Below are positions 41,925-56,816 of a DNA stretch of 64,000 nucleotides, piece by piece (position 1 is the stretch's first letter; each line of letters begins with the position of its first letter). Location of the stretch: positions 124,001-188,000 of the forward strand of contig NZ_KI530755.1 of the NCBI RefSeq assembly GCF_000488255.1, written 5' to 3'. A model generated the notes under the pieces. It saw only the letters and a program-made list of their open reading frames with translations, did no database searches and was not told the DNA's origin. Source of the stretch: Acinetobacter indicus CIP 110367. Its GTDB lineage: Bacteria; Pseudomonadota; Gammaproteobacteria; Pseudomonadales; Moraxellaceae. A program made the translations under genes and the position numbers.

Positions 41925-42491
41925 ATGCGTGGTGTAAATAAGGTCATTTTAGTTGGTACTTTAGGTCGAGATCCAGAAACAAAAACTTTCCCGAATGGTG
42001 GCTCGCTTACTCAATTTTCCATTGCCACCAGTGATGCGTGGACCGATAAAACCACCGGTGAGCGTAAAGAGCAAACCGAATGGCACCGTATTGTGCTGCA
42101 TAACCGTTTAGGTGAAATCGCGCAGCAATACTTACGCAAAGGTTCAAAAGTCTATATTGAAGGTTCATTGCGTACCCGTCAGTGGACCGATCAGAATGGT
42201 CAGGAACGCTACACCACAGAAATTCGTGGCGAGCAAATGCAGATGCTGGACTCTGGTCGTCAGCAAGGTGAGCAGGGCGATAATGGTTTTAGCCAGCCAC
42301 GTTTTAACAATAACCAGGGCGGTGGTTATAGCAATAACAACCAGGGTGGCTATGCGCCGCAAGCTCAAGGTGGTTTTAACAACAATAATGCTGGTGGTGG
42401 CTATGGCAACCAGGGCGGTTATCAGCAACCGAAACCAGCTCCTGCTGCAACACCTGCACCTGCAGATTTGGATGATGATTTACCGTTCTGA
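41925..42491 (+). CDS. ssb: Single-stranded DNA-binding protein
   Basis: Essential replication and repair protein that coats ssDNA as a tetramer. It has 188 residues: an OB fold at 1-110 ([55 protein letters not shown]), a Gly/Asn/Gln-rich linker at 120-165 with repeated NNQGG units, and the acidic tip DLDDDLPF that docks partner proteins. It is the last backbone gene before the accessory region. A 10-bp-stem terminator follows at 42559. Confidence 0.98.
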
Positions 42492-42558
42492 CACCTACTA
42501 GAGACTATGTTTTGTAAAGTTTATAAAATTATTCTTTATTAGTAGTTAGTTACAAAAG

Positions 42559-42649: not shown

Positions 42650-42770
42650 ATGTCTGTTAAAAGATTTGTAATGAGTAGTGGTGAGAGATTCGCTGTTCTT
42701 TTGAATAGTGATGGTGTTCCTATGACTTATCCAAATTTATATATGATCATTCATTGGCACTGTTGCAAAT
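42650..42770 (+). pseudogene. N-terminal fragment of a site-specific integrase, cut by the IS6 element
   Basis: From ATG 42650 the frame reads MSVKRFVMSSGERFAVLLN, then SDGVPMTYPNLYMIIH, and enters the IS left end, stopping at TAG within it. The GVP-x-x-x-PNLY pattern is that of the N-terminal start of tyrosine recombinases found in Acinetobacter mobile elements; that is from memory of the family and only 36 residues remain. ATG 42647 is an alternative start. The remainder of the gene is not found at the other side of the IS, so DNA was lost or rearranged. Confidence 0.45.
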
Positions 42771-43574
42771 AGAGATTTGAGTCGATGATGTTCCCTTTAA
42801 AAAGTACTTAGAGACCGAAAACCCTGTTGATTAGACACACTTCACCCTGAGGCTGACCATAATAAAATGACGATGCTTGTCCTTTACGTAGTGCACGCAT
42901 GACTTCAATACCTTTAATTGTGGCATAAGCCGTCTTCATAGATTTGAATCCTAATGTGGCCCTGATGATCCGCTTTAGCTTGCCATGATCACATTCAATC
43001 ACGTTATTTTTATACTTAATCTGCCTGTGCTCAAGGTCTGGTGGACATTTACCTTCCCGTTTTAACCGTGATAAAGCACGTCCATATGTGGGTGCTTTAT
43101 CCGTGTTGATCACTTGTGGAATTTGCCACTTCTTCACATTATTTAAAATTTTTCCAAGAAAACAATATGCTGATTTGGTATTACGTCTAGAAGAAAGATA
43201 AAAATCAATGGTATCGCCACGTTGATCGACTGCACGATACAGATAAGACCATCGTCCATTCACTTTTACATAGGTTTCATCAATATGCCACGAGCTCAGA
43301 TCTGTAGGATTACGCCAATACCAGCGTAAACGTTTTTCTATTTCAGGAGCATAACGTTGAACCCAACGGTAAATAGTCGTGTGATAAACATTCACACCCC
43401 GTTCGGCCAGCATTTCCTGCAGTTCACGATAGCTAATGCCATATTTACAATACCAGCGCACAGCCCAAAGAATGATTTCGCCCTGAAAATGCCGACCATG
43501 GAAAGGATTCATATGCTGCACCTTTAGCTAAAACAGTCTTCAGCTTATTATTCGTGGTTATTTGCAACAGTGCC
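42756..43574 (-). mobile_element. IS6-family insertion sequence (IS1006/IS1007-like)
   Basis: An 819-bp element bounded by GGCACTGTTGCAAA at 42756 and its inverse TTTGCAACAGTGCC ending at 43574, the IS26-type terminal repeats. One transposase gene on the minus strand fills it. Flanking octamers (CATTCATT and CTTACTTC) differ, so no target duplication remains. This is usual when an IS6 element formed a cointegrate or deleted neighbouring DNA. Confidence 0.93.
42808..43512 (-). CDS. IS6-family DDE transposase
   Basis: Replicative cut-in transposase of 234 residues from ATG 43512 (MNPFHGRHFQGEIILWAVRW). An HTH region near 25-55 (SYRELQEMLAERGVNV, TTIYRWVQRYAP) is followed by the catalytic core: WHIDETYVK (first Asp near 80), VINTDKAPTY (second Asp near 140) and NVIECDHGKLKR (Glu near 176). 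All three acidic residues are present, so the enzyme looks active. AAAGGTG precedes the start, and GTG 43521 is an alternative. One residue, Tyr in GVNVYHTTIYRW, differs from Asp in the truncated copy at 45370. Confidence 0.95.
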   Translation of the reverse strand: MNPFHGRHFQGEIILWAVRWYCKYGISYRELQEMLAERGVNVYHTTIYRWVQRYAPEIEKRLRWYWRNPTDLSSWHIDETYVKVNGRWSYLYRAVDQRGDTIDFYLSSRRNTKSAYCFLGKILNNVKKWQIPQVINTDKAPTYGRALSRLKREGKCPPDLEHRQIKYKNNVIECDHGKLKRIIRATLGFKSMKTAYATIKGIEVMRALRKGQASSFYYGQPQGEVCLINRVFGL

Positions 43575-43575
43575 C

Positions 43576-44856
43576 TTACTTCAAAGCCAAAATTTTTCGG
43601 GCACCATTAAGTACGAATAAAGAAACCAGTATGCCAATGATTAAGTCTGGATAAGCTGATCCCGTCCACGCCACGAGTACACCCGCAAATATAACGCCCA
43701 TATTTACGACAACGTCATTCGCCGAGAAAATCCAACTGGCTTTCATATGTGCGCCATCTTCTCGATGACCAGAAATAAGATATAAGCATGTCACGTTAGC
43801 TATAAGTGCGAGCAGGCCAATAACAATCATGAGCGTTGATTCTGGCTCGCTTCCAAACATGAATCGTCTAATGACATCAACAATCACGATAACAGCAAGT
43901 AATAACTGAATCCAACCTGCGAAATGGGCTGCTTTTATTTGATATTTCGCAGCTTTTCCGACGGCATATAGCGCAATACCATAAACGGCTGCATCGGCAA
44001 ACATATCTAGAGAATCAGCAATCAATCCTGTAGACGCAGCAATAATACCGCTGATGAATTCTATAAAGAAAAGTAGAGCATTAATACCTAATAACAGTTT
44101 AAGTACTTTAGCTTGTCTCACAGGATCAGGTTCATTAGGTATATCGCCTGAAGAAAGCTGTGTTTCATCAAGTTTCGCCCCAAAACCCAGTCCTTCGAGT
44201 TTAGCCGTAATTTGCTGAATCCCTTCATTATGGAAGACTTTCAGTTTTCGATTGGGAAGATCAAAAGTAAGACCTTTAACTGCTTCAATATCTGCAAGAG
44301 CCATACGGACCATTTGCTCTTCAGCAGAGCAATCCATTTTAGGAATGGTGTAGGTACTTGTTTGCTTAGCCTGTTGATTGCTTATATAAGTTTCAGTCTT
44401 CACAAGCTTTGCACCAAAACCCAAAGCTTCAAGTTTGGTGGTTATATTTTCATCTTTTTGATTATGTAGAACCTTTAAAGAACGGTTAGGTAAATCAAAG
44501 ATGAGTTTTTGAACACCATCAATTGAAGATAGCGCCATACGAACCATCTGTTCTTCCGCAGAACAATCCATTTTGGGAACTAAGTATTCACTCATGTAGT
44601 GCGAATCTTTTAAAATATCTTCAGTGCTTAAATTTTCTTTGGGATCAGAACCATAACAGGATTGAGCGGTATCTTCACAACTGTTTGAAGTGTTACAGCA
44701 AGGAGATGAAGATTTTTTTTCTTCCTCTTCACCACAACAGCTAAGCGTATTATCACAATTCTTTGAATTGTTTGCTTCTGCAATTGATGGATGATTTTCT
44801 TGTTGAGATTTCTTATCTTCGCATGGTGTTTCTTTACTACATCCACAACCACTCAT
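43576..44856 (-). CDS. Cation efflux (CDF-type) protein with Cys-rich N-terminus and two HMA-like repeats
   Basis: A 426-residue inner-membrane protein, probably exporting Cd/Zn or another soft metal. Residues 1-75 are Cys-rich (GCGCSKETPC, LSCCGEEEE, SPCCNTSNSC). Two near-identical HMA-like domains follow (about 88-150 and 160-225), each starting PKMDCSAEEQMVRMAL and ending LGFGAKL; each has one Cys, not CxxC. The CDF core has six helices near 245-425 with ADSLDMFADAAVYGIALYAV and FSANDVVVNMG. The start MSGCGC at 44856 is preferred to 44868. Divergent from a MerR-type regulator with a typical operator. The IS6 element begins one base past its stop codon, so the native C-terminus may be slightly changed. 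Confidence 0.85.
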   Translation of the reverse strand: MSGCGCSKETPCEDKKSQQENHPSIAEANNSKNCDNTLSCCGEEEEKKSSSPCCNTSNSCEDTAQSCYGSDPKENLSTEDILKDSHYMSEYLVPKMDCSAEEQMVRMALSSIDGVQKLIFDLPNRSLKVLHNQKDENITTKLEALGFGAKLVKTETYISNQQAKQTSTYTIPKMDCSAEEQMVRMALADIEAVKGLTFDLPNRKLKVFHNEGIQQITAKLEGLGFGAKLDETQLSSGDIPNEPDPVRQAKVLKLLLGINALLFFIEFISGIIAASTGLIADSLDMFADAAVYGIALYAVGKAAKYQIKAAHFAGWIQLLLAVIVIVDVIRRFMFGSEPESTLMIVIGLLALIANVTCLYLISGHREDGAHMKASWIFSANDVVVNMGVIFAGVLVAWTGSAYPDLIIGILVSLFVLNGARKILALK

Positions 44857-44891
44857 AATTATACCCATTAAAAAAATTATAAACTTTGAAT

Positions 44892-44922
44892 ATTAGAATC
44901 CCTATAGTTACTATAGAGTCAA
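44892..44922 (-). promoter_or_regulatory. MerR-type promoter/operator of the cation efflux gene
   Basis: On the minus strand, -35 TTGACT and -10 TCTAAT are 19 bp apart. The spacer carries the dyad CTATAG-TAA-CTATAG. The over-long 19-bp spacer with a central dyad is the hallmark of MerR/CadR/PbrR-controlled promoters. The regulator would untwist it on metal binding. Confidence 0.85.
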
Positions 44923-44945
44923 GAATCTTTGGAAATACTAACTCA

Positions 44946-45338
44946 ATGCATTTAAAAATTGGTGAACTCTCTAAAAAAACCTCATGTTCAGTATTAACAA
45001 TTAGGTTTTATGAAAAGGAAGGTTTAATTCCGGAACCGGAAAGAACGGAAGGAAATTACCGCCTTTACGATGTAGGCTATGTTGAGCGAATTAAATTTAT
45101 TTTGAATTGCCGAACTTTAAATATGAGTTTGAATGAAATTCGTCAATTACTTACCTATAAAGACAAACCTGAGAAAAATTGTTCAGATGTGAATGAATTA
45201 ATTGACTTACATGTCAGTGCTATCAGAGAAAATATAATCAAGCAACAAAAGCTTATTGAACAACTATCTGATTTAAGAGGTACTTGTGATGGTTTATGTA
45301 CAATTGACCAATGTGGAGTTTTAAAAAATCTAGCTTGA
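44946..45338 (+). CDS. MerR-family metal-responsive regulator (CadR/PbrR-like)
   Basis: A 130-residue activator-repressor. ATG 44946 (MHLKIGELSKKTSCSVLTIR) is the family start; in-frame codons from 44886 overlap the operator. The winged helix is at 1-70 (IRFYEKEGLIPEPERTEGNY). The dimer coiled coil is near 80-115. Metal-ligand Cys candidates are NCSDVNELIDLH near 79 and the C-terminal TCDGLCTIDQCGVL, the pattern of CadR/PbrR. It is divergent from the efflux gene and shares the operator at 44892. Which metal is sensed cannot be read from sequence; Cd, Pb and Zn are all plausible. Confidence 0.88.
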   Translation: MHLKIGELSKKTSCSVLTIRFYEKEGLIPEPERTEGNYRLYDVGYVERIKFILNCRTLNMSLNEIRQLLTYKDKPEKNCSDVNELIDLHVSAIRENIIKQQKLIEQLSDLRGTCDGLCTIDQCGVLKNLA

Positions 45339-45369
45339 TTATCTAGACCTATGCTTTTTTCAAAAAATC

Positions 45370-45593
45370 GGCACTGTTGCAAATAACCACGAATGGTAAG
45401 CTGAAGACTGTTTTAGCTAAAGGTGCAGCATATGAATCCTTTCCATGGTCGGCATTTTCAGGGCGAAATCATTCTTTGGGCTGTGCGCTGGTATTGTAAA
45501 TATGGCATTAGCTATCGTGAACTGCAGGAAATGCTGGCCGAACGGGGTGTGAATGTTGATCACACGACTATTTACCGTTGGGTTCAACGTTAT
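45370..45593 (+). mobile_element. Truncated IS6-family element (left 224 bp)
   Basis: Starts with GGCACTGTTGCAAA, then matches the transposase end of the IS at 42756-43574 in inverted orientation, through to CGTTAT at 45593. It encodes the first ~54 residues of the transposase (MNPFHGRHFQGEIILWAVRW onward, from 45432) and then breaks off into unrelated sequence. With the intact copy it flanks the efflux gene and regulator. Confidence 0.9.
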
Positions 45594-45601
45594 ACGAATC
45601 T

Positions 45602-45630
45602 AAAAATGGGAGCCTATAGCTCCCATTTTT
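45602..45630. terminator. Terminator downstream of higA
   Basis: AAAATGGGAGC/GCTCCCATTTTT hairpin with loop CTATA. On the minus strand it lies just past the higA stop. It is symmetric. Confidence 0.8.
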
Positions 45631-45634
45631 ATTG

Positions 45635-45937
45635 TTAAACATTGAATCCTATATGTTTTCCTGTTGGAAGCTCTACATCAATACGGAGCTTCCCACCCAT
45701 TGCCTCAACATACTTTTTCATGGTTGAAATCTTAAGATCATTGCCACGATTTTCTATTGCTGAAAGCGATGGCTGTTTTATTCCCAAAGTTTCAGCAAGC
45801 TCTTTTTGAGAAATTTCGAGTTCTTCACGAATAAGATGAAGCTGATTTTCTAGCAGTAATTCATCAGCCATTTTTTGAATACGGGCTTGGCTCTCTGGAG
45901 AGCGGCTAGCTAACAATTCTTGCAGAGTCTTAGCCAT
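45635..45937 (-). CDS. higA: HigA-type antitoxin, XRE-family HTH
   Basis: A 100-residue DNA-binding antitoxin. The XRE HTH is near 38-92: REELEISQKELAETLGIKQP, then SLSAIENRGNDLKISTMKKY. The C-terminus (LPTGKHIGFNV) is short. Overlaps the toxin gene upstream by 8 bases (45930-45937), with the toxin first, the HigBA order. It should neutralise HigB and repress the operon at the dyad 46299-46318. A terminator follows. Confidence 0.88.
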   Translation of the reverse strand: MAKTLQELLASRSPESQARIQKMADELLLENQLHLIREELEISQKELAETLGIKQPSLSAIENRGNDLKISTMKKYVEAMGGKLRIDVELPTGKHIGFNV

Positions 45938-46286
45938 TAGATTTATCTCCTAGGGTAGTGAGATGAAGTTGGTATTGTTCATCTGCAATATCCAGCATGT
46001 CTTTATAAAAACGCTTTTTACCGCCTTTATCAGCAATACATAGAACAATAGCCTGTCGTAAGGGATCAAATGCGAAGAAAGCTCTTAAGGGTCTACCGCG
46101 ATGTTGAACACGCAGTTCTTTCATATTGGTAAATTTAGACTCATACACAGTATCTACTAAAGGACGGCCTAAACTCGGTCCCTGCTGCTGTAGAACAACC
46201 AGGGCAGCTAGGACCTTCTCTTGTGTAGGTTCATCTTGCTGTTCAAGCCACTGATTAAATAGATCTGTCGTAATGACAGTCCACAT
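45930..46286 (-). CDS. higB: HigB-type toxin (RelE/Gp49-like mRNA interferase)
   Basis: A 118-residue toxin of the RelE superfamily, Gp49/HigB2 branch, expected to cleave mRNA on the ribosome. Blocks are NQWLEQQDEPTQEKVLAALV, GPSLGRPLVDTVYESKFTNM, the conserved KELRVQHRGRPLRAFFAFDP and IADKGGKKRFYKDMLDIAD, where basic residues and the aromatic after KKR form the active site. It is the first gene of the pair, starting at ATG 46286 right behind the operator. HigBA pairs of this type are frequent on Acinetobacter plasmids, in keeping with the mobile surroundings. Confidence 0.88.
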   Translation of the reverse strand: MWTVITTDLFNQWLEQQDEPTQEKVLAALVVLQQQGPSLGRPLVDTVYESKFTNMKELRVQHRGRPLRAFFAFDPLRQAIVLCIADKGGKKRFYKDMLDIADEQYQLHLTTLGDKSNG

Positions 46287-46298
46287 ACCACAACCAGA

Positions 46299-46318
46299 AT
46301 ATAGATTATAGTCTATAT
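46299..46318 (-). promoter_or_regulatory. higBA operator and -10 box
   Basis: ATATAGA/TCTATAT arms around a 6-base centre. The minus-strand TATAAT (46305-46310) sits inside the dyad, 19 bases before the higB ATG. This suits autorepression by HigA. Confidence 0.6.
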
Positions 46319-46364
46319 TTTAGGGGCATTATGTTTGTTTTGCAAATGAGAAAGGATAGGCAAT

Positions 46365-46555
46365 AAAAAACCCCGGCATCCTGCCGGGGTTTTTCATATT
46401 GGGTTGCTAAGTATGACTCCTGTCTTACCTCACGTTCCTGGTGCGATCTTTCTTATTCTTGTTGTTTGGAACATCCTGTTCTCTATGGCTTCATCATAGG
46501 AAAATTCACCTCTCCTGGACAGCCGTAAAGAACCAGAATTTACGTAAGCCCAGGC
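46365..46555 (-). ncRNA. Candidate CsrA/RsmA-binding small RNA (CsrB/RsmZ-like)
   Basis: On the minus strand five AGGA motifs fall within about 140 nt: CCAGGAGAGG (46513), AACAGGATG (46474), CCAGGAACG (46436), ACAGGAGTC (46418) and the terminator loop GCAGGATGC (46378). Four lie in hairpin loops: GAAC-AGGAT-GTTC, CAC-CAGGAAC-GTG, GAC-AGGA-GTC, and CCCCGGC-AGGAT-GCCGGGG followed by six T. Such repeated AGGA loops ending in a Rho-independent terminator are how CsrB/RsmX/Y/Z RNAs titrate CsrA/RsmA. No protein frame is present. The 5' end is a guess, no clear -10/-35 was found, and no GacA upstream site (TGTAAG-N6-CTTACA) is visible. Confidence 0.5.
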
Positions 46556-46691
46556 GTACAAAATAGCCTAAATTTTATTCACAAAAAATGTGGATAATTT
46601 TAAGCATTCAAGCATTGATAAAATTTAAAAAATCGCAAAATCGACTACTTTTTAAACAAATTTATTGGCAAGAACTATCAAAACCGCTCAT

Positions 46692-46728
46692 AAAAAAGCC
46701 GACTTGTTTCAAAATCGGCTTTTTTATG
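46692..46728. terminator. Symmetric terminator hairpin
   Basis: AAAAAAGCCGA/TCGGCTTTTTT around a 12-base loop. On the minus strand it would stop transcripts from the module genes at 46809-47279. Confidence 0.7.
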
Positions 46729-46786
46729 GTTTTTAGATTTTTATGCTTTGAATAAGTATCTGATATTTATATTAATATACAAATGT

Positions 46787-46814
46787 ATTGCGTATAATCG
46801 CCATTATGTTAAAT
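46787..46814 (+). other. XerC/XerD recombination site (pdif/dif type), C/D orientation, site 1
   Basis: XerC half ATTGCGTATAA, spacer TCGCCA, XerD half TTATGTTAAAT. The XerD half equals that of E. coli dif. Its spacer is unlike those of the other four sites. Overlaps the last codons of the gene at 46809. Confidence 0.8.
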
Positions 46815-47279
46815 AGAGGTTTGTTCTTGCCATTTTTGAAGCTCATTTATAAAGTTATGAAATACTTCCATAGGTTCTAATGACGAATAATTTTCTAGTG
46901 CTAAATATAATTCATCATCATATGAAATGAGTAAATTATTCAAATTTTTATCTTCTAAATATTTTGAAATTAAAGTAATTTTTTGAAAAAAAGGATAAAT
47001 AGCCTCTTTTGACCGAATGGAAGTAAGGTGACTAAGAACATACTCATTCAGTAATGAATGGATTACATTATTTCTCGTATTTATATCAAGATCAGTGATA
47101 TGTATCTTTTTAAAATACTCAATAACCTCTTGAAGATCCGCTAAAAAACATACTTCTAAAGCTAGCTCATCTGAAGGATTAATTTCTAAAGTATCTAAAG
47201 CCCATTTTTGAATTTCTTCTGGGGATTTCAAATATAATTCTAATTCGACTTTAAATTGAATTTTATTGGCGTCACTCAT
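46809..47279 (-). CDS. Hypothetical protein in XerC/D module 1
   Basis: A 156-residue acidic, Leu/Glu/Asn-rich, helical protein, unrecognised. It starts MSDANKIQFKVELELYLKSP and has no signal peptide or membrane segment. Its size, charge and low GC resemble immunity proteins or stand-alone cargo of plasmid modules, which is only an impression. It is flanked by inversely oriented XerC/D sites at 46787 and 47302. A promoter-like TATAAT on the minus strand at 47345-47350 in the adjoining linker could drive it across site 2. The stop codon lies within site 1. Confidence 0.7.
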   Translation of the reverse strand: MSDANKIQFKVELELYLKSPEEIQKWALDTLEINPSDELALEVCFLADLQEVIEYFKKIHITDLDINTRNNVIHSLLNEYVLSHLTSIRSKEAIYPFFQKITLISKYLEDKNLNNLLISYDDELYLALENYSSLEPMEVFHNFINELQKWQEQTSI

Positions 47280-47301
47280 ATTTTTTATTTAATTTCTCTA
47301 A

Positions 47302-47329
47302 AATTAACATAATACACGTTATATGAAGC
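47302..47329 (-). other. XerC/XerD recombination site, D/C orientation, site 2
   Basis: Plus strand AATTAACATAA, TACACG, TTATATGAAGC. Read on the minus strand: XerC-like half GCTTCATATAA, spacer CGTGTA, XerD half TTATGTTAATT. It is inverted relative to sites 1 and 3. Confidence 0.75.
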
Positions 47330-47406
47330 TCTAAAAATGAGTTTATTATACTGATTTTTATATATTTTTTAAATTTTAAAACCTAGACCAGTGTCTAGGA
47401 TTTTTG
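47330..47406. repeat. 77-bp linker between XerC/D sites 2 and 3 (repeat copy 1)
   Basis: Shares AAAATGAGTTTATT, ACTGAT and TTTTTTAAATTTTA in order with 47693-47770. It ends in the hairpin CCTAGAC-CAGT-GTCTAGG (47382-47399) and T's. The second copy has CCTGGG/CCCAGG, a compensated change. It also holds a minus-strand TATAAT. Confidence 0.7.
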
Positions 47407-47434
47407 ATTTCGTACAACAACCATTATATTAAAT
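47407..47434 (+). other. XerC/XerD recombination site, C/D orientation, site 3
   Basis: XerC half ATTTCGTACAA, spacer CAACCA, XerD half TTATATTAAAT. Confidence 0.75.
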
Positions 47435-47441
47435 AGAGGAG

Positions 47442-47636
47442 TTACTCTGTTGAGTTTTCACAGTTTAGTAGCATACATTTTCCGTCAATTTTACCAACTA
47501 AGCTTATAGGTTTAGATGTTTCTCCATCATCAAAAGATATCTCAACTAATAAGTTTTGATCCTCGAAAGATTCTAATTCTTTAATTAATTGTTTGATGCT
47601 TTTACCCTGTATTACCCACTCTGGCTGTTTAGGCAT
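47442..47636 (-). CDS. Small hypothetical protein in XerC/D module 2
   Basis: A 64-residue protein, MPKQPEWVIQGKSIKQLIKE then LESFEDQNLLVEISFDDGE, unrecognised, soluble and acidic. It is the sole gene between the inversely oriented XerC/D sites at 47407 and 47665. GGGAGTAAT precedes its ATG on the minus strand, a fair ribosome binding site. The linker hairpin at 47382 would terminate it. Confidence 0.65.
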   Translation of the reverse strand: MPKQPEWVIQGKSIKQLIKELESFEDQNLLVEISFDDGETSKPISLVGKIDGKCMLLNCENSTE

Positions 47637-47664
47637 ATTACTCCCAGCTATTAAATATCTCTAA

Positions 47665-47692
47665 AATTAATATAATACACGTTATGCGAAAT
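47665..47692 (-). other. XerC/XerD recombination site, D/C orientation, site 4
   Basis: Minus strand: XerC half ATTTCGCATAA, spacer CGTGTA, XerD half TTATATTAATT. The spacer is identical to that of site 2. Confidence 0.8.
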
Positions 47693-47770
47693 TAGAAAAA
47701 TGAGTTTATTGCACTGATATTTATCTGTTTTTTAAATTTTAGACCTGGGTTGGTGCCCAGGTTTTTTTTG
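47693..47770. repeat. Linker after XerC/D site 4 (repeat copy 2), interrupted by the ISNCY element
   Basis: 78 bases homologous to 47330-47406, ending in hairpin CCTGGG-TTGGT..-CCCAGG (47744-47761) and eight T's. The ISNCY element starts exactly where site 5 would be expected. Confidence 0.7.
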
Positions 47771-49224
47771 TTATTCACCAATTAAAATGTCTATGCGAAA
47801 AACCATTTAAAATGTCCTGTTTTTAACCACAAGAGTCAAGCACAGGATTTAAATTTCTTTGTTCAATAACAGCTTTCTGAGCTTTACGGCTCGGCATACT
47901 TTTCTTGGCACGGGAACGTTTATTCTGTTTCTCCAATTCTTCATGTTGTTGCTGGATATGCGCCAGGACTGAACCTAACCGTTTATTCTCAACAATCTCA
48001 TTTTGCTGCAGCCCAGCCAATTTATTGAAGATGCTGTAGTTGAGCTTTCGTCCTTCATGCATGAGGGCCACAGTGCCATCCGGATACTCCAGAAATGAAA
48101 TGTATTGCCCAGCAAGCTTATGATTCAGCTCTGTCGGTTCAAGCAGATAAATACATTTGTCATAGGTAATCGTCAGGTTCTTGGTGACCTTACGCGGTTC
48201 CTGCCAGGTAAAAATATCATCCAGTTCAAGATCAGATTCGGTTAATGGTCGATGCAGGTTCTTTGAGTTTCGCGCACATTTGGCGAACTTCTGATTGAAC
48301 TGCTCAATAAAGCAGGGCAACCAGGCATTAGCTTGCTCAATCGAGCTGATACCTTCCAGACGCATCTCCTTGATCAAACGGTCCTGAAGGGTTCTATTCG
48401 CTCGCTCTACGCGACCTTTGGCCTGGGGTGAATTGGCGAAGATAATATCAATGTTTAACTCATTCAGAATCCGCCCAAATTGCGTGATCTGGCTGTCTTG
48501 CCTGGATTTCTGGTTGACTCTAAATACCGAGTGTTTATCGCTATAAAAGGCCAAGGGCTTGCCGTATTGCTCAATGTAGGCTCGGGTTGAAAGCATATAG
48601 TCAAAGGTCGTTTCCGCCTCACAAAAGCGCAAATGCAACAGCTTGCCAGTAGCATCATCGATATACACCAATAAACAGCACTTAGCAGCGCGTCCTTCGA
48701 ACCAGTCATGATATGAGCCATCAATCTGAATCAGTTCACCGAAGCAATCACGGTTATAACGTGGCTGATATGGACGCTTCAGGCGCTTGGATCGAGGAAT
48801 CCACAGGTCATTGGCCGTCATCCAGCGCCGAAGCGTTTCTACCGGGATATTCAGGTCAAACATGCTGCTGAGCTTCTCATGCGCCAAGGTGGGTCCAAAA
48901 CCCAGCAAATGTTCAGCAATAATGGAAAGGCACTTTGATTTTAACAAGTCATCATGGCGACGATGGCCAGGTTGACCACGACTGGCATGTGCCATACCTG
49001 AGACACCATCTTGATTGAGCTTCTGCAATAACCGGGTAATTTGACGGGTTGAAAGATTGAGGATTTCAGCAGCACGGACTTGGGTAATACGTTGATCTCG
49101 AACGTCTTGCAGAACTGCAAGCCGTTGAATTTCTTTGTCAGACATAGTGATCAGCATCTATATTTATATCCAGTCCATGGTGATAAAAACCATCATAAAC
49201 TAGACATTTTTATTGGTGAGAATA
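47771..49224 (-). mobile_element. ISNCY-family (IS1202-group-like) insertion sequence
   Basis: About 1.45 kb. The ends carry inverted TTATTCACCAATTAAAATGTCTA (left; first 20 bases TTATTCACCAATTAAAATGT) and TATTCTCACCAATAAAAATG (right, minus strand), plus extra internal AAAATGTC repeats. The true ends may extend a little further right, as another AGACATTTT lies at 49226. One transposase gene. No target duplication was recognised. Confidence 0.7.
47823..49157 (-). CDS. ISNCY-family transposase
   Basis: A 444-residue DDE-type transposase. An N-terminal HTH (VRDQRITQVRAAEILNLSTR, QITRLLQKLNQDG) and a second one (ETLRRWMTANDLW) are followed by an RNase H-like core. Acidic residues are in LIQIDGSYHDWFEG, AFYSDKHSVFRV and GRVERANRTLQDRLIKEM, so the D, D, E triad is intact. 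The tail is basic (KQNKRSRAKKSMPSRKAQKA). The start may be 49145 (MSDKEIQRLAVLQ). No frameshift, so the element could be active. Confidence 0.85.
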   Translation of the reverse strand: MLITMSDKEIQRLAVLQDVRDQRITQVRAAEILNLSTRQITRLLQKLNQDGVSGMAHASRGQPGHRRHDDLLKSKCLSIIAEHLLGFGPTLAHEKLSSMFDLNIPVETLRRWMTANDLWIPRSKRLKRPYQPRYNRDCFGELIQIDGSYHDWFEGRAAKCCLLVYIDDATGKLLHLRFCEAETTFDYMLSTRAYIEQYGKPLAFYSDKHSVFRVNQKSRQDSQITQFGRILNELNIDIIFANSPQAKGRVERANRTLQDRLIKEMRLEGISSIEQANAWLPCFIEQFNQKFAKCARNSKNLHRPLTESDLELDDIFTWQEPRKVTKNLTITYDKCIYLLEPTELNHKLAGQYISFLEYPDGTVALMHEGRKLNYSIFNKLAGLQQNEIVENKRLGSVLAHIQQQHEELEKQNKRSRAKKSMPSRKAQKAVIEQRNLNPVLDSCG

Positions 49225-49472
49225 TAGACATTTTGAATGGGTTCTAACATTTTTATTGCGTATAACAACCATTATGTTAAACATAAGTTAAATGGAGTAA
49301 ACAACTCAAATTTTGAACCAACTAAGAAGCTTTTAAAATATCATTAACTATATTGTTGGATAAGCTATTAGTTATATGCTTAAAAAAAACGTAATTGAGC
49401 CAGTAAATTCACATTTTCTTTATTACCTTACCGTGTATATTGAATAAGTTTTTATGAAACAATGAGTAAAAT
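49158..49472. other. Interval between the ISNCY transposase and mipA
   Basis: Holds the IS right end, XerC/D site 5 and about 190 AT-rich bases that must contain the promoter of the MipA-family gene. No small gene was seen. Confidence 0.55.
49255..49282 (+). other. XerC/XerD recombination site, C/D orientation, site 5
   Basis: XerC half ATTGCGTATAA, spacer CAACCA, XerD half TTATGTTAAAC. The spacer equals that of site 3. It has the same orientation as sites 1 and 3. Confidence 0.78.
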
Positions 49473-50267
49473 ATGCTTAAAAAGCTCGGATTTACTATAA
49501 TTTTATGCATTCCTATGGCTACTTTTGCTGCTGAAGATAGACAACAAAAAGGACAAATCAGTAAACCTCAAGGTTTAAGTTTAGGCATAGGTGCAGTTGG
49601 TAGTAACGGTATATATGTAGGGGAAAAAACTGAAATCACTCCTATACCTGTGATTTCATATGAAACTGAGGATTTTTTTATTCGTGGTTTATATGCAGGT
49701 GTAGAACTCTACAAAGATAAACTTCTTACCGTAAATGCGATTGCTAACATCAATATGATGAATTTAGATGTCGATGACTTAAGCACAGAAAAATTAGCTG
49801 CTAAAAATATTAGTAAATCACAATTAGAAGATCGTGATCGTAGTGTAGATTTAGGTTTAGAAAGTATTGTACGACTACCTTATGGCTTATTTTCACTACA
49901 AGCTGTCAATGATGTTGGTGGTGCTAGTGAAGGAGCAGAACTTCGCTTTAATTATCAATACTTCTGGAGAATAAATCCTAAAGTCACTCTTATGCCAAAT
50001 GCTGGAGTAGATTGGCTATCGGATAAAAGAGCAAATTATTATTATGGTATTTTAGACAGTGAAGTTGCTCGTGGTGTTGCAGCATATAAACCAAATCATG
50101 TCTTTATTCCACATGTATCTTTAGGTGCAAGTTATGCACTGACAGATAAAGTCAAATTAAGTGGTGTAGCAATGCAAAAGTTTTTACCAAGTAAAGTTCA
50201 AGATGGGCCATTAGTTGATAAAAGTGGACTCACTAATTTTTATATGGCACTGACATATAAATTTTAA
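49473..50267 (+). CDS. MipA/OmpV-family outer-membrane protein
   Basis: A 264-residue predicted outer-membrane beta barrel. The signal peptide MLKKLGFTIILCIPMATFAA is followed by a mature start EDRQQKGQ. The opening barrel block LSLGIGAVGSNGIYVGEKTE and the tail FYMALTYKF are typical of MipA/OmpV. Family roles range from murein-synthesis scaffolding to porin-like functions and metal or antibiotic tolerance; none is shown here. The gene is distinctly AT-rich compared with the core genes. It sits right of XerC/D site 5, and may be the cargo of a third module whose right site has been lost. Confidence 0.85.
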   Translation: MLKKLGFTIILCIPMATFAAEDRQQKGQISKPQGLSLGIGAVGSNGIYVGEKTEITPIPVISYETEDFFIRGLYAGVELYKDKLLTVNAIANINMMNLDVDDLSTEKLAAKNISKSQLEDRDRSVDLGLESIVRLPYGLFSLQAVNDVGGASEGAELRFNYQYFWRINPKVTLMPNAGVDWLSDKRANYYYGILDSEVARGVAAYKPNHVFIPHVSLGASYALTDKVKLSGVAMQKFLPSKVQDGPLVDKSGLTNFYMALTYKF

Positions 50268-50312
50268 GTATTGATATTTATTTTTAATAAAACGATTTTG
50301 CTAATCAATCTG

Positions 50313-50340
50313 AAGCCTAGACTCATTCTAGGCTTTTTTT
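50313..50340 (+). terminator. Terminator after the MipA-family gene
   Basis: AAGCCTAG/CTAGGCTT around loop ACTCATT with seven T's. Confidence 0.85.
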
Positions 50341-50448
50341 ATGTAATCACTTTCAATTAGTCATCATCAAGTATTTCGGTAATCCCCCCTAAAAATAATA
50401 GGATCTAAAAGTAGAATTTTCTCTTAAGATACGAGCAGGAGATTCTGC

Positions 50449-50750: not shown

Positions 50751-51539
50751 ATGGCACAACAGGCAGTTGCCCAGCATGCCATTAGTATTCGTTTGGCTTG
50801 TAAAGCATTTGGCATTAGTGAAACCTGCTACCGCTATCAAGCCAAACTCAGCGATGACAATGCACTCATTGCTGAACAGCTCATTGAACTCACTGAGGAA
50901 AATTCCGATTGGGGCTTTGGTTTGTGCTTCTCGTATTTACGGCATGTTGAGAGTTGCTGCTGGAATCACAAGCGGGTTTACCGCATTTACTGTGAGTTGG
51001 CACTGAATCTGCGTATTAAACCGAGAAGAAGACTAAAACGGCATGCGCCTGAACCATTGAAGGAACCAATCCGAGAAAATCAGGTTTGGTCATTAGATTT
51101 TATGCATGATCAGCTTTCCGATGGTCGCAAGTTTCGATTATTGAATGTGATTGATGATTACCGCCGCGAAGGCCTAGCCATTGAAGCAGGGTTCTCATTG
51201 CCCACAATCAGGGTTATTCGTACGTTGAATCAATTGCTGGAGTGGAGAGAAAAACCGTTAGTGATCCGATGCTATAATGGTCCCGAATTTATCAGTCACG
51301 AATTTGTGCGCTGGGCTACTGAGCACGGTATTCGTATTGAATATATTCAACCGGGTAAGCCACAGCAGAATGCGTATATTGAACGCTATAATCGGACCAT
51401 ACGTTATAGTTGGCTGAGCAAGCATTTATTTGATACTTTGGATGAAGTACAAGATTATGCAACAAACTGGTTGTGGCATTACAACCATGAAAGACCACAC
51501 CAAGCAAACAAAGGAAGGCCACCTCTAATGGCTGCTTAA
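50751..51539 (+). pseudogene. IS3-family transposase OrfB, catalytic Asp replaced by Tyr
   Basis: A 262-residue DDE integrase-fold protein. The frame is open upstream of ATG 50751 and reads [15 protein letters not shown], so the product is normally an OrfAB fusion. Catalytic positions: Asp116 ([11 protein letters not shown]), then Tyr175 in [11 protein letters not shown] where the family has RCDNGPE, and Glu211 ([11 protein letters not shown]). The 35-residue gap from 175 to 211 confirms that Tyr175 sits at the second Asp. A single G to T change (GAT to TAT) explains it. The reading frame is intact but the enzyme is probably dead, so this copy should not move by itself. Confidence 0.8.
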
Positions 51540-51847: not shown

Positions 51848-52257
51848 TATATTTATTTTTCATAGCTTCCGAATTAACACTAAATTTCAGTGAGATAAAA
51901 AGTGTAAATTTTTAAGTATTTTTTATTGAATTTTTACAAAATACAATACATAATTCATTAAGTTTTTGAAATATATATATATTAATTATAATTTGGTATG
52001 TATATACTTTTTAAGGCCATCATCTAAAGCAGAAAATAAATAAAAACCCTTTGTTTTGACAAAGGGTTTTTTATTGCCTGTGTGAAAAGTAGGATCGATC
52101 AATTGAAGAAAACGATAAAAACTTCAATTGAGACAGAATATTTAGATCTATATTTCCGATTATTTTTATAAAAAAGTACTGTTTTACCGATTTATCTCAG
52201 TTTTGTATTCTAGTTTCACAAGATAAGCAATCCCCACAACGCACTGAGGAATACAGA
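51848..52257. other. Interval between the gene remnant and ahpC
   Basis: 410 AT-rich bases. The terminator AACCCTTTG/CAAAGGGTT with T's is at 52044-52073, probably the end of the lost gene. The last 180 bases hold the ahpC promoter. No further gene. Confidence 0.6.
52044..52073 (+). terminator. Terminator upstream of ahpC
   Basis: AAAACCCTTTG-TTTTGA-CAAAGGGTTTT hairpin with T run. Confidence 0.8.
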
Positions 52258-56594: not shown

Positions 56595-56816
56595 ATTGTG
56601 GAGTTGCATTTTACAGATTTTTAATTCGGGCGCAAGCGAAAAAATAAGCAATTAAAAGTAGGCGACAGGCGCTGTTTTATTTTTATCCAGCTCTTGTTTT
56701 CGCGCTTAAACATCGTGGAAGAGGCAAGTTTCTGCTCAAGACAACAATAGCTCACGTTCAGGGCGAGCTATTGTTTTGAATTTAAAATAAAGGGGGTTAA
56801 GTGCCGCAGAGGCGTG

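Follow-up and report, generated by a model that had tools for sequence, protein, structure and literature searches.

A probably plasmid-derived array of Xer modules in the Acinetobacter indicus chromosome, with an RsmY/CsrB-like RNA gene in its outer module

Rep_3/OrfX plasmids of Acinetobacter carry dif (pdif) modules, which are bounded by 28-base-pair (bp) XerC/XerD sites of alternating (C/D and D/C) orientation, follow an identical-spacer rule in recombination and include toxin-antitoxin modules (PMC13141974). The same plasmid-like modules and extra dif sites have been described as islands in Acinetobacter chromosomes (PMC12907356, PMC6449649), and plasmid fragments with pdif sites in chromosomes are given in PMC10132070; chromosomal dif arrays as such are already published. 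Here we analyze a stretch of 64,000 nucleotides (nt) from Acinetobacter indicus CIP 110367 (assembly GCF_000488255.1, contig NZ_KI530755.1, positions 124,001 to 188,000; the whole stretch is called the window), in which an array of such modules lies between ssb and ahpC. In contrast to the Rep_3/OrfX plasmid modules described in PMC13141974, this array is chromosomal, has no rep gene and is damaged at its ends. Whereas the published chromosomal islands carry, as described, mainly resistance or adaptive genes, it holds metal efflux genes, a HigBA-like pair, two unassigned genes and mipA. Sequence comparisons suggest, with a probability that we put at about 0.8, that a plasmid fragment of alternating dif modules was inserted between ssb and ahpC, its outer C module carrying an RsmY/CsrB-like RNA. 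The array is one well-bounded example of a published phenomenon, and the RNA weighs more: on our best reading, what is new is a mobile, GacA-boxed, putatively CsrA-sponge-like RNA at a fixed place in Xer modules.

Five sites, with the positions, orientations and spacers given below, had been described in the original prediction, and pattern scans returned all of them unchanged.

46787 to 46814, plus strand: dif-like site 1, C/D, spacer TCGCCA
47302 to 47329, minus strand: dif-like site 2, D/C, spacer CGTGTA
47407 to 47434, plus strand: dif-like site 3, C/D, spacer CAACCA
47665 to 47692, minus strand: dif-like site 4, D/C, spacer CGTGTA
49255 to 49282, plus strand: dif-like site 5, C/D, spacer CAACCA

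Four of the sites (46787 +, 47407 +, 47665 - and 49255 +) match the pattern ATTTCGTATAA-N6-TTATGTTAAAT with at most three mismatches, for which 100 dinucleotide shuffles gave a mean of 0.00 sites. Site 2 (47302, D/C), whose XerC arm reads GCTTCATATAA, was recovered by a looser scan; the loosest setting also gave a poor site at 56780, which was left out of the count. All five have the format of 11+6+11 bp (28 bp), and their orientation alternates. Across the whole genome, matches with 0 or 1 mismatch to the dif pattern occur at 21 places on eight contigs, four of them inside the window. With up to three mismatches there are 46 matches versus 38 for the pattern read backwards, so the looser matches are mostly background. 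Spacer TCGCCA of site 1 is seen again in the same genome, at G000:C10:265462. The main chromosomal dif of the strain is likely G000:C1:803558-803584, with spacer TGTATA, which is that of most dif sites tabulated in PMC10132070.

In the terms of PMC13141974, D modules, with the XerD arms on the inner side, lie between sites 1 and 2 and between sites 3 and 4, and C modules between sites 2 and 3 and between sites 4 and 5. The set is longer than had been predicted: a further C module to the left of site 1 belongs to it and the whole reads C-D-C-D-C-D, with both outer sites missing. The genes of 156 and 64 amino acids (aa) that had been assigned to the first two modules are indeed the open reading frames (ORFs) between sites 1 and 2 and between sites 3 and 4.

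43560 to 46786: leftmost C module; its left end is an IS6-family element and no dif site is found there
46809 to 47279, minus strand: D module 1 cargo, 156-aa protein (orf156), function unassigned
47330 to 47406: 77-bp C module without an ORF, with a terminator-like hairpin
47442 to 47636, minus strand: D module 2 cargo, 64-aa protein (orf64), function unassigned
47693 to 49254: C module, a relative of the 77-bp one, split by an insertion sequence (IS)
49283 to 50377, plus strand: D module 3, with a MipA/OmpV-family gene (49473-50267); right dif site absent

Segments of the array recur on plasmids. Part of positions 46700-47770 is matched by 846 plasmid records, 844 of them from Acinetobacter, which refutes a lack of enrichment of the sites on plasmids. 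At least 80% of the leftmost C module (43560-46786) is covered by 38 plasmid records; among the 12 plasmid matches listed, coverage is 99-100% at 97.0-98.1% identity, and the gene order is the same in pAhaem2126chf. Matches to module 2 occur on plasmids of three species, A. nosocomialis, A. soli and A. pseudolwoffii, and those of A. soli and A. nosocomialis align only over 47400-47690, almost exactly from site 3 to site 4. The module is present in 7 of 175 genomes of the genus, as in all such counts with our own included, and orf64 has counterparts on five Acinetobacter plasmids at 95-100% protein identity and in nine plasmid records of other genera at less than 60%. The third module had been predicted to start at 49255, to carry mipA and to lack a right site. 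This holds, and an intact right site is present in the copy on pApiA45Pb of A. pittii, the sole plasmid record found: window positions 49283-50377 are 99.7% identical to this plasmid, in which the mipA module lies between a C/D site with spacer TAGCCA and a D/C site with spacer GGTGTA.

Relatives of orf156 occur in 28 of the 175 genomes, module 1 being rarer. The best other relatives show 94, 89, 85 and 82% identity, and the last has internal stops. On the site-1 side, the homology in all four either begins at a dif-like site or continues through it. On the other side, two matches reach the position of site 2 and the other two (L117 and L119) stop 10 bp before it; in L118, where module 1 is matched over 46787-47326, the counterpart of site 2 retains the XerD arm only. 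Segments whose homology ends at the sites were thus found elsewhere for module 2 (in plasmids), the mipA module (in pApiA45Pb) and module 1 (in L118). The plasmid collection holds three records with orf156 relatives, at 31-40% identity, one of which is 4.1 Mb long. No dif-like site occurs in the fetched stretches around distant relatives of orf156 (L120-L126) and orf64 (L149, L150); both genes therefore also exist outside modules.

The interval between ssb and ahpC is not conserved in relatives. The ssb gene lies within 5 kb upstream of ahpC in 7 of 21 Acinetobacter ahpC loci, and none of these seven, which have the same gene order, contains the island; orf156, orf64, the IS transposase and mipA are all missing from them (the other 14 loci could not be judged). 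The two genes are about 165-315 bp apart in the three loci with the most similar AhpC, compared with 9.8 kb here, and homology to the seven relatives breaks off within 42323-42492 and returns within 52044-52146. Judged by these alignments, the island is an insertion between ssb and ahpC. The proposal that a plasmid-type module array had come to lie at this place is borne out by the plasmid copies of its modules and by the absence of the island from relatives, and sequence comparison marks the array as plasmid-derived and now chromosomal.

To the left of site 1 the homology extended across a segment with no likely gene, and it is there that the RNA was found.

46365 to 46498, minus strand: RsmY-like (putative CsrA-sponge type) small RNA gene; model span, from a -10-like TATGAT to the terminator
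46543 to 46560, minus strand: GacA-box-like palindrome TGTACGCCTGGGCTTACG, with 44 nt between its end and the -10, as in 87 of 98 copies, the most frequent distance

The transcript probably covers about 46365-46490. A cmscan search matched the Rfam family RsmY (RF00195) on the minus strand at 46367-46490 (E=1.4e-4, 31.5 bits), and weak RsmY matches (E<0.1) were obtained in 4 of 13 other loci. Our own covariance model gives 157 bits for the window copy, which was in its training set. Copies of the RNA were aligned in 38 rows, from which 30 distinct sequences were kept; BLAST pieces under about 100 bases had been omitted beforehand, as had ten loci duplicating the window or one another (L002, L010, L011, L013, L018, L020, L025, L115, L145 and L152).

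An AGGA or GGA is kept at four places in the 30 copies; in the window these read GAACAGGATGTTC, CACCAGGAACGTG, GGTAAGACAGGAGTCATACT and, in the terminator, CCCCGGCAGGATGCCGGGG. RNAalifold recovers hairpin 1, the outer stem of hairpin 3 and the terminator. When covariation was tested on the same 30-sequence alignment on which the structure had been chosen, 95.4% of cells were paired, 10 pairs were changed on both sides (versus 3.8 in shuffled alignments) and 24 cells were counted (versus 5.0), while sliding the partners by 1-3 columns gave at most 3 pairs. The multiple GGA hairpins of the CsrB/RsmX-Y-Z class are thus found by covariation for hairpins 1 and 3 and the terminator, and weakly for hairpin 2. 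Folded alone, the window transcript has z = -3.96 and forms hairpin 3 and the terminator. An AAGGA occurs in hairpin 2 of some relatives, and a GGA atop a loop is the minimum stated in PMC9928087.

We take the GacA-type box to be TGTAAG-N6-CTTACA. Within 110 nt upstream of the -10, a box with at least 9 of 12 matches is present in 98 of 101 copies, ending 43-47 nt before the -10, and the same score is reached in 7.4% of 2,020 control windows from the same loci. PMC7911923 prints a related box from Pseudomonas. One csrA match is present in the strain, as is a GacA/UvrY-like regulator that falls just under the cut-off (271.7 versus 280 bits). Most aligned copies also keep an inverted repeat, TATCCMCA-N6-TGKGGATA, upstream of the box (window 46570-46600), which in some copies is close to a pair of DnaA boxes.

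The covariance model finds eight strong copies in the A. indicus genome: a chromosomal cluster (C11:6843-8731), one copy at C1:5818 and four beside dif sites (the window, C14:140894, C14:31159 and C1:77412). The C11 cluster holds three further RNA copies, and clusters are also seen in genomes G015, G059 and G035. In a sample of 119 genomes of the family, the best match outside the genus has an E value of 8e-6, and 23 of the 26 same-genus genomes listed have matches below 1e-7. A DNA search found relatives in 152 of the 175 genus genomes. In plasmids, 400 records match the RNA, 395 of them from Acinetobacter and 378 over at least 80% of the RNA length; among the plasmid copies is one on pAB1 of strain ATCC 17978 (CP000522, 10791-10919). 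The window RNA is identical to the copy on a plasmid of Acinetobacter sp. WY4. Two records in a phage collection (CAKLQF020000013 and CAKLQH020000009, Acinetobacter phage MD-2021a) have full-length relatives at four places each; these records may be mis-binned host DNA.

The position of the RNA relative to Xer sites was examined in 81 copies from 64 sources, for which nearly all same-genus matches of the covariance model at an E value of about 1e-13 or better, and some weaker ones, had been fetched. A dif-like site lies at most 700 bp upstream in 23 of them. Its XerC end faces the RNA in 21 of these 23, at 274-304 bp in 18 and at 140-200 bp in three, as measured from the XerC end to the model start (the -10); the window RNA is 289 bp from site 1. 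Among 20 plasmid loci, picked by similarity to the window RNA, 16 have a D/C site at 289-303 bp with the RNA pointing away from it (the exceptions are L268, L276, L277 and L279). This set comprises 18 of 30 spread rows and the whole of CP000522, with 11 rows left out, and pMSHR_A204, which was added by choice; without the latter, 15 of the 19 loci have the site at that distance. On a tree built from 101 copies, whose details are unsure with so few columns, linkage to dif requires 16 changes versus about 30 when shuffled, i.e. dif-linked copies cluster.

The genes that follow the RNA vary, and include HigBA-like pairs, vapBC, Fic, NadS/RelE and others. In pMSHR_A204 the RNA copy precedes higBA2 in a C module, and the ORF-less module of this plasmid described in PMC13141974 is a D module that holds no match to the RNA. 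In four copies (L204, L226, L229 and L251) a C/D site follows 11-18 bp past the terminator; these modules are 435-448 bp long, with longest ORFs of 44-79 codons, the 79-codon one starting at TTG.

The RNA shares AGGA hairpins, a terminator, a GacA-type box and several copies per genome with the RsmX/RsmY/RsmZ (CsrB) RNAs, and differs from them in residing in Xer modules on plasmids and in scoring below the RsmY cut-off. RsmA-regulating RNAs were predicted in the chromosome of Acinetobacter ADP1 (PMC5568370), and RsmY/RsmZ models match A. johnsonii Aj2199 (PMC4993456); these predictions may concern the same family or another. RsmQ, a plasmid-borne protein of the CsrA family (PMC9928087), is likewise a case of a plasmid reaching into the host Csr/Rsm system, by way of a protein and not of a candidate antagonist RNA. 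The main text of PMC13141974 does not mention the RNA (the words 'small rna', 'non-coding', 'promoter' and 'terminator' are absent from it), and our searches of an open-licence library gave no account of RNA copies in dif modules or plasmids; an A. baumannii transcriptome listing may hold the RNA.

From the motifs and the structure we infer a chain of events in which GacA would bind the upstream palindrome and switch on transcription of the small RNA, whose AGGA hairpins would then bind CsrA dimers and draw CsrA off its mRNAs. The RNA family, chromosomal across the genus, would have been adopted as a standard head of many C modules, and plasmids would thereby add to the CsrA-sponge dose of the host. 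That Xer modules have in this way taken over a host RNA under GacA control, so that hundreds of plasmids, those of clinical A. baumannii included, raise or tune the dose of the antagonist and may benefit from it, is an interpretation that we favor with reservations. Several observations weigh against it. The window RNA, at 31.5 bits, stays below the Rfam gathering cut-off for RsmY of 57 bits. Hairpin 2 and the inner stem of hairpin 3 were added by hand and not by RNAalifold; the pairing of hairpin 2 holds in 57-85% of cells, and 4 of the 30 sequences have lost hairpin 3. In the window transcript folded alone, hairpins 1 and 2 give way to pairing between bases of the one and bases of the other. 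No ANGGA is present in the window copy, whose loops read CAGGA, and the copies hold 3-8 GGA, fewer than the 22 that PMC11882849 cites for CsrB of E. coli. The plasmid loci owe their selection to similarity with the window RNA. Finally, 58 of the 81 copies have no upstream site within 700 bp, and 37 of these 58 are on contigs longer than 300 kb, so many RNA copies are ordinary chromosomal loci.

Some of these points would also suit an RNA that is no CsrA sponge, acting as a base-pairing (Hfq-type) regulator or as the leader of the adjoining toxin-antitoxin genes. A HigBA-like pair or vapBC does follow it in the same direction in the window and in many plasmid loci, and the absence of ANGGA and the partly different fold of the window copy fit as well. 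Yet the RNA has its own terminator, on other plasmids the next genes are for a Fic protein or for NadS/RelE on the opposite strand, and the four copies enclosed alone between two sites have no such partner; what stays constant is AGGA on covarying stems together with the GacA-type box. We consider this explanation improbable. Still less credit is due to the idea that the array was built up in the chromosome and supplied plasmids with their modules. The relatives of module 1 are mostly genomic, the few in the plasmid collection being distant, and the remote orf156 and orf64 relatives have no dif-like site nearby; against this, relatives lack the island, and plasmid copies of the leftmost C module, of module 2 and of the mipA module have identities of 95% or more. 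That the sites are chance matches or chromosomal dimer-resolution sites is hardly credible: chromosomes carry one such site, here likely that with spacer TGTATA, whereas the chance expectation is none and five alternating sites lie within 2.5 kb, with the segments between them copied elsewhere.

On the preferred explanation, an Acinetobacter plasmid fragment of C-D-C-D-C-D Xer modules entered the chromosome between ssb and ahpC. The chromosomal XerC/XerD could still act on the array, likeliest between sites 2 and 4 or between sites 3 and 5. Observed recombination at pdif sites has involved identical spacers and, in two events, spacers differing at one position (PMC13141974). The spacer CGTGTA is common to sites 2 and 4, and CAACCA to sites 3 and 5; with the same orientation within each pair, the published identical-spacer rule predicts excision of a C+D module pair. 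The opposite possibility, that the modules are inactive plasmid remains now fixed in the chromosome, with sites that no longer recombine, is doubtful but deserves serious attention: both outer sites are missing, elements of the IS1202 and IS3 families break the set, and the XerC arm of site 2 has diverged, which speaks against present recombination. The identical spacers have nevertheless been kept at both pairs, and such pairs are reported to recombine in plasmids (PMC13141974). Of the 25 D modules in ten loci with tabulated genes, 24 have one spacer that ends in GTA and one that does not, a pairing that would prevent inversion of the module on its own ends.

An insertion sequence that had been overlooked in the original prediction lies between sites 4 and 5.

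47769 to 49249, minus strand: IS1202-family (ISAba32-cluster-like) IS, 1,481 bp; 444-aa transposase at 47823-49157

Its terminal inverted repeats (TIRs) match at 20 of 26 positions, it is flanked by a 5-bp duplication, TTTTT, and 5 bp separate it from XerC of site 5; the transposase scores 483 bits with the NCBIfam ISNCY model. The IS1202 family, which targets pdif and dif sites, is characterized in PMC10132070 by a length of about 1.48 kb, imperfect TIRs of 24-26 bp, a 5-bp duplication, a distance of 5 bp from XerC and a transposase of 441-457 aa. The 1,481-bp element has all of these features, and we see no essential difference from the ISAba32 cluster as described there. To the right, the sequence shared with the mipA module of pApiA45Pb ends three bases short of the place of the second site. 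An IS3-family transposase gene (50751-51539, with a score of 208.1 bits, which is over the cut-off) adjoins this break, the extent of the IS itself being approximate. On the left, a full IS6-family element (42756-43574) and an IS6-family remnant (45370-45593) flank the metal-efflux genes; a structure bounded by IS1008 with pdif sites is reported in A. baumannii (PMC10132070).

The leftmost C module encodes an HMA/cation-efflux protein (-), a CadR-type regulator (+), a HigBA-like antitoxin and toxin (-) and the small RNA (-). The CadR assignment scores 214.7 bits and that of IS6 276.7 bits, both over the cut-off. The HigBA-like label is based on the Pfam families Gp49 and HTH_3 and on how related genes are named in pMSHR_A204; NCBIfam gives no match for the toxin gene (45930-46286), and for the antitoxin only HipB, under its cut-off. 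For orf156 and orf64 there is no Pfam family above the cut-off and no NCBIfam match. The label 'Imm42' for orf64 was rejected, as in the plasmid matches it sits on the neighbouring gene. Relatives of the small C module, 76-77 bp long, occur in four other loci (L113, L264, L283 and L286), and the hairpin recurs in them; in the window the small C modules comprise 47330-47406 and 47693-47768, and the region around them is the one partly matched by the 846 plasmid records. An integron-like arrangement, in which 77-bp C modules would provide a shared promoter and terminator for D-module genes, was rejected as a rule because gene direction relative to site type is inconstant in ten loci.

If the RNA acts as proposed, some small C modules without a clear protein gene would not be empty. 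The copy on pAB1 of the laboratory strain ATCC 17978 means that the RNA can be sought in existing data. On rich medium, csrA is critical to the growth of A. baumannii (PMC12802169), and GacS/GacA controls the conjugation of pAB3 (PMC10746170); a plasmid RNA that titrates CsrA would therefore tie plasmid content to metabolism, virulence and plasmid spread.

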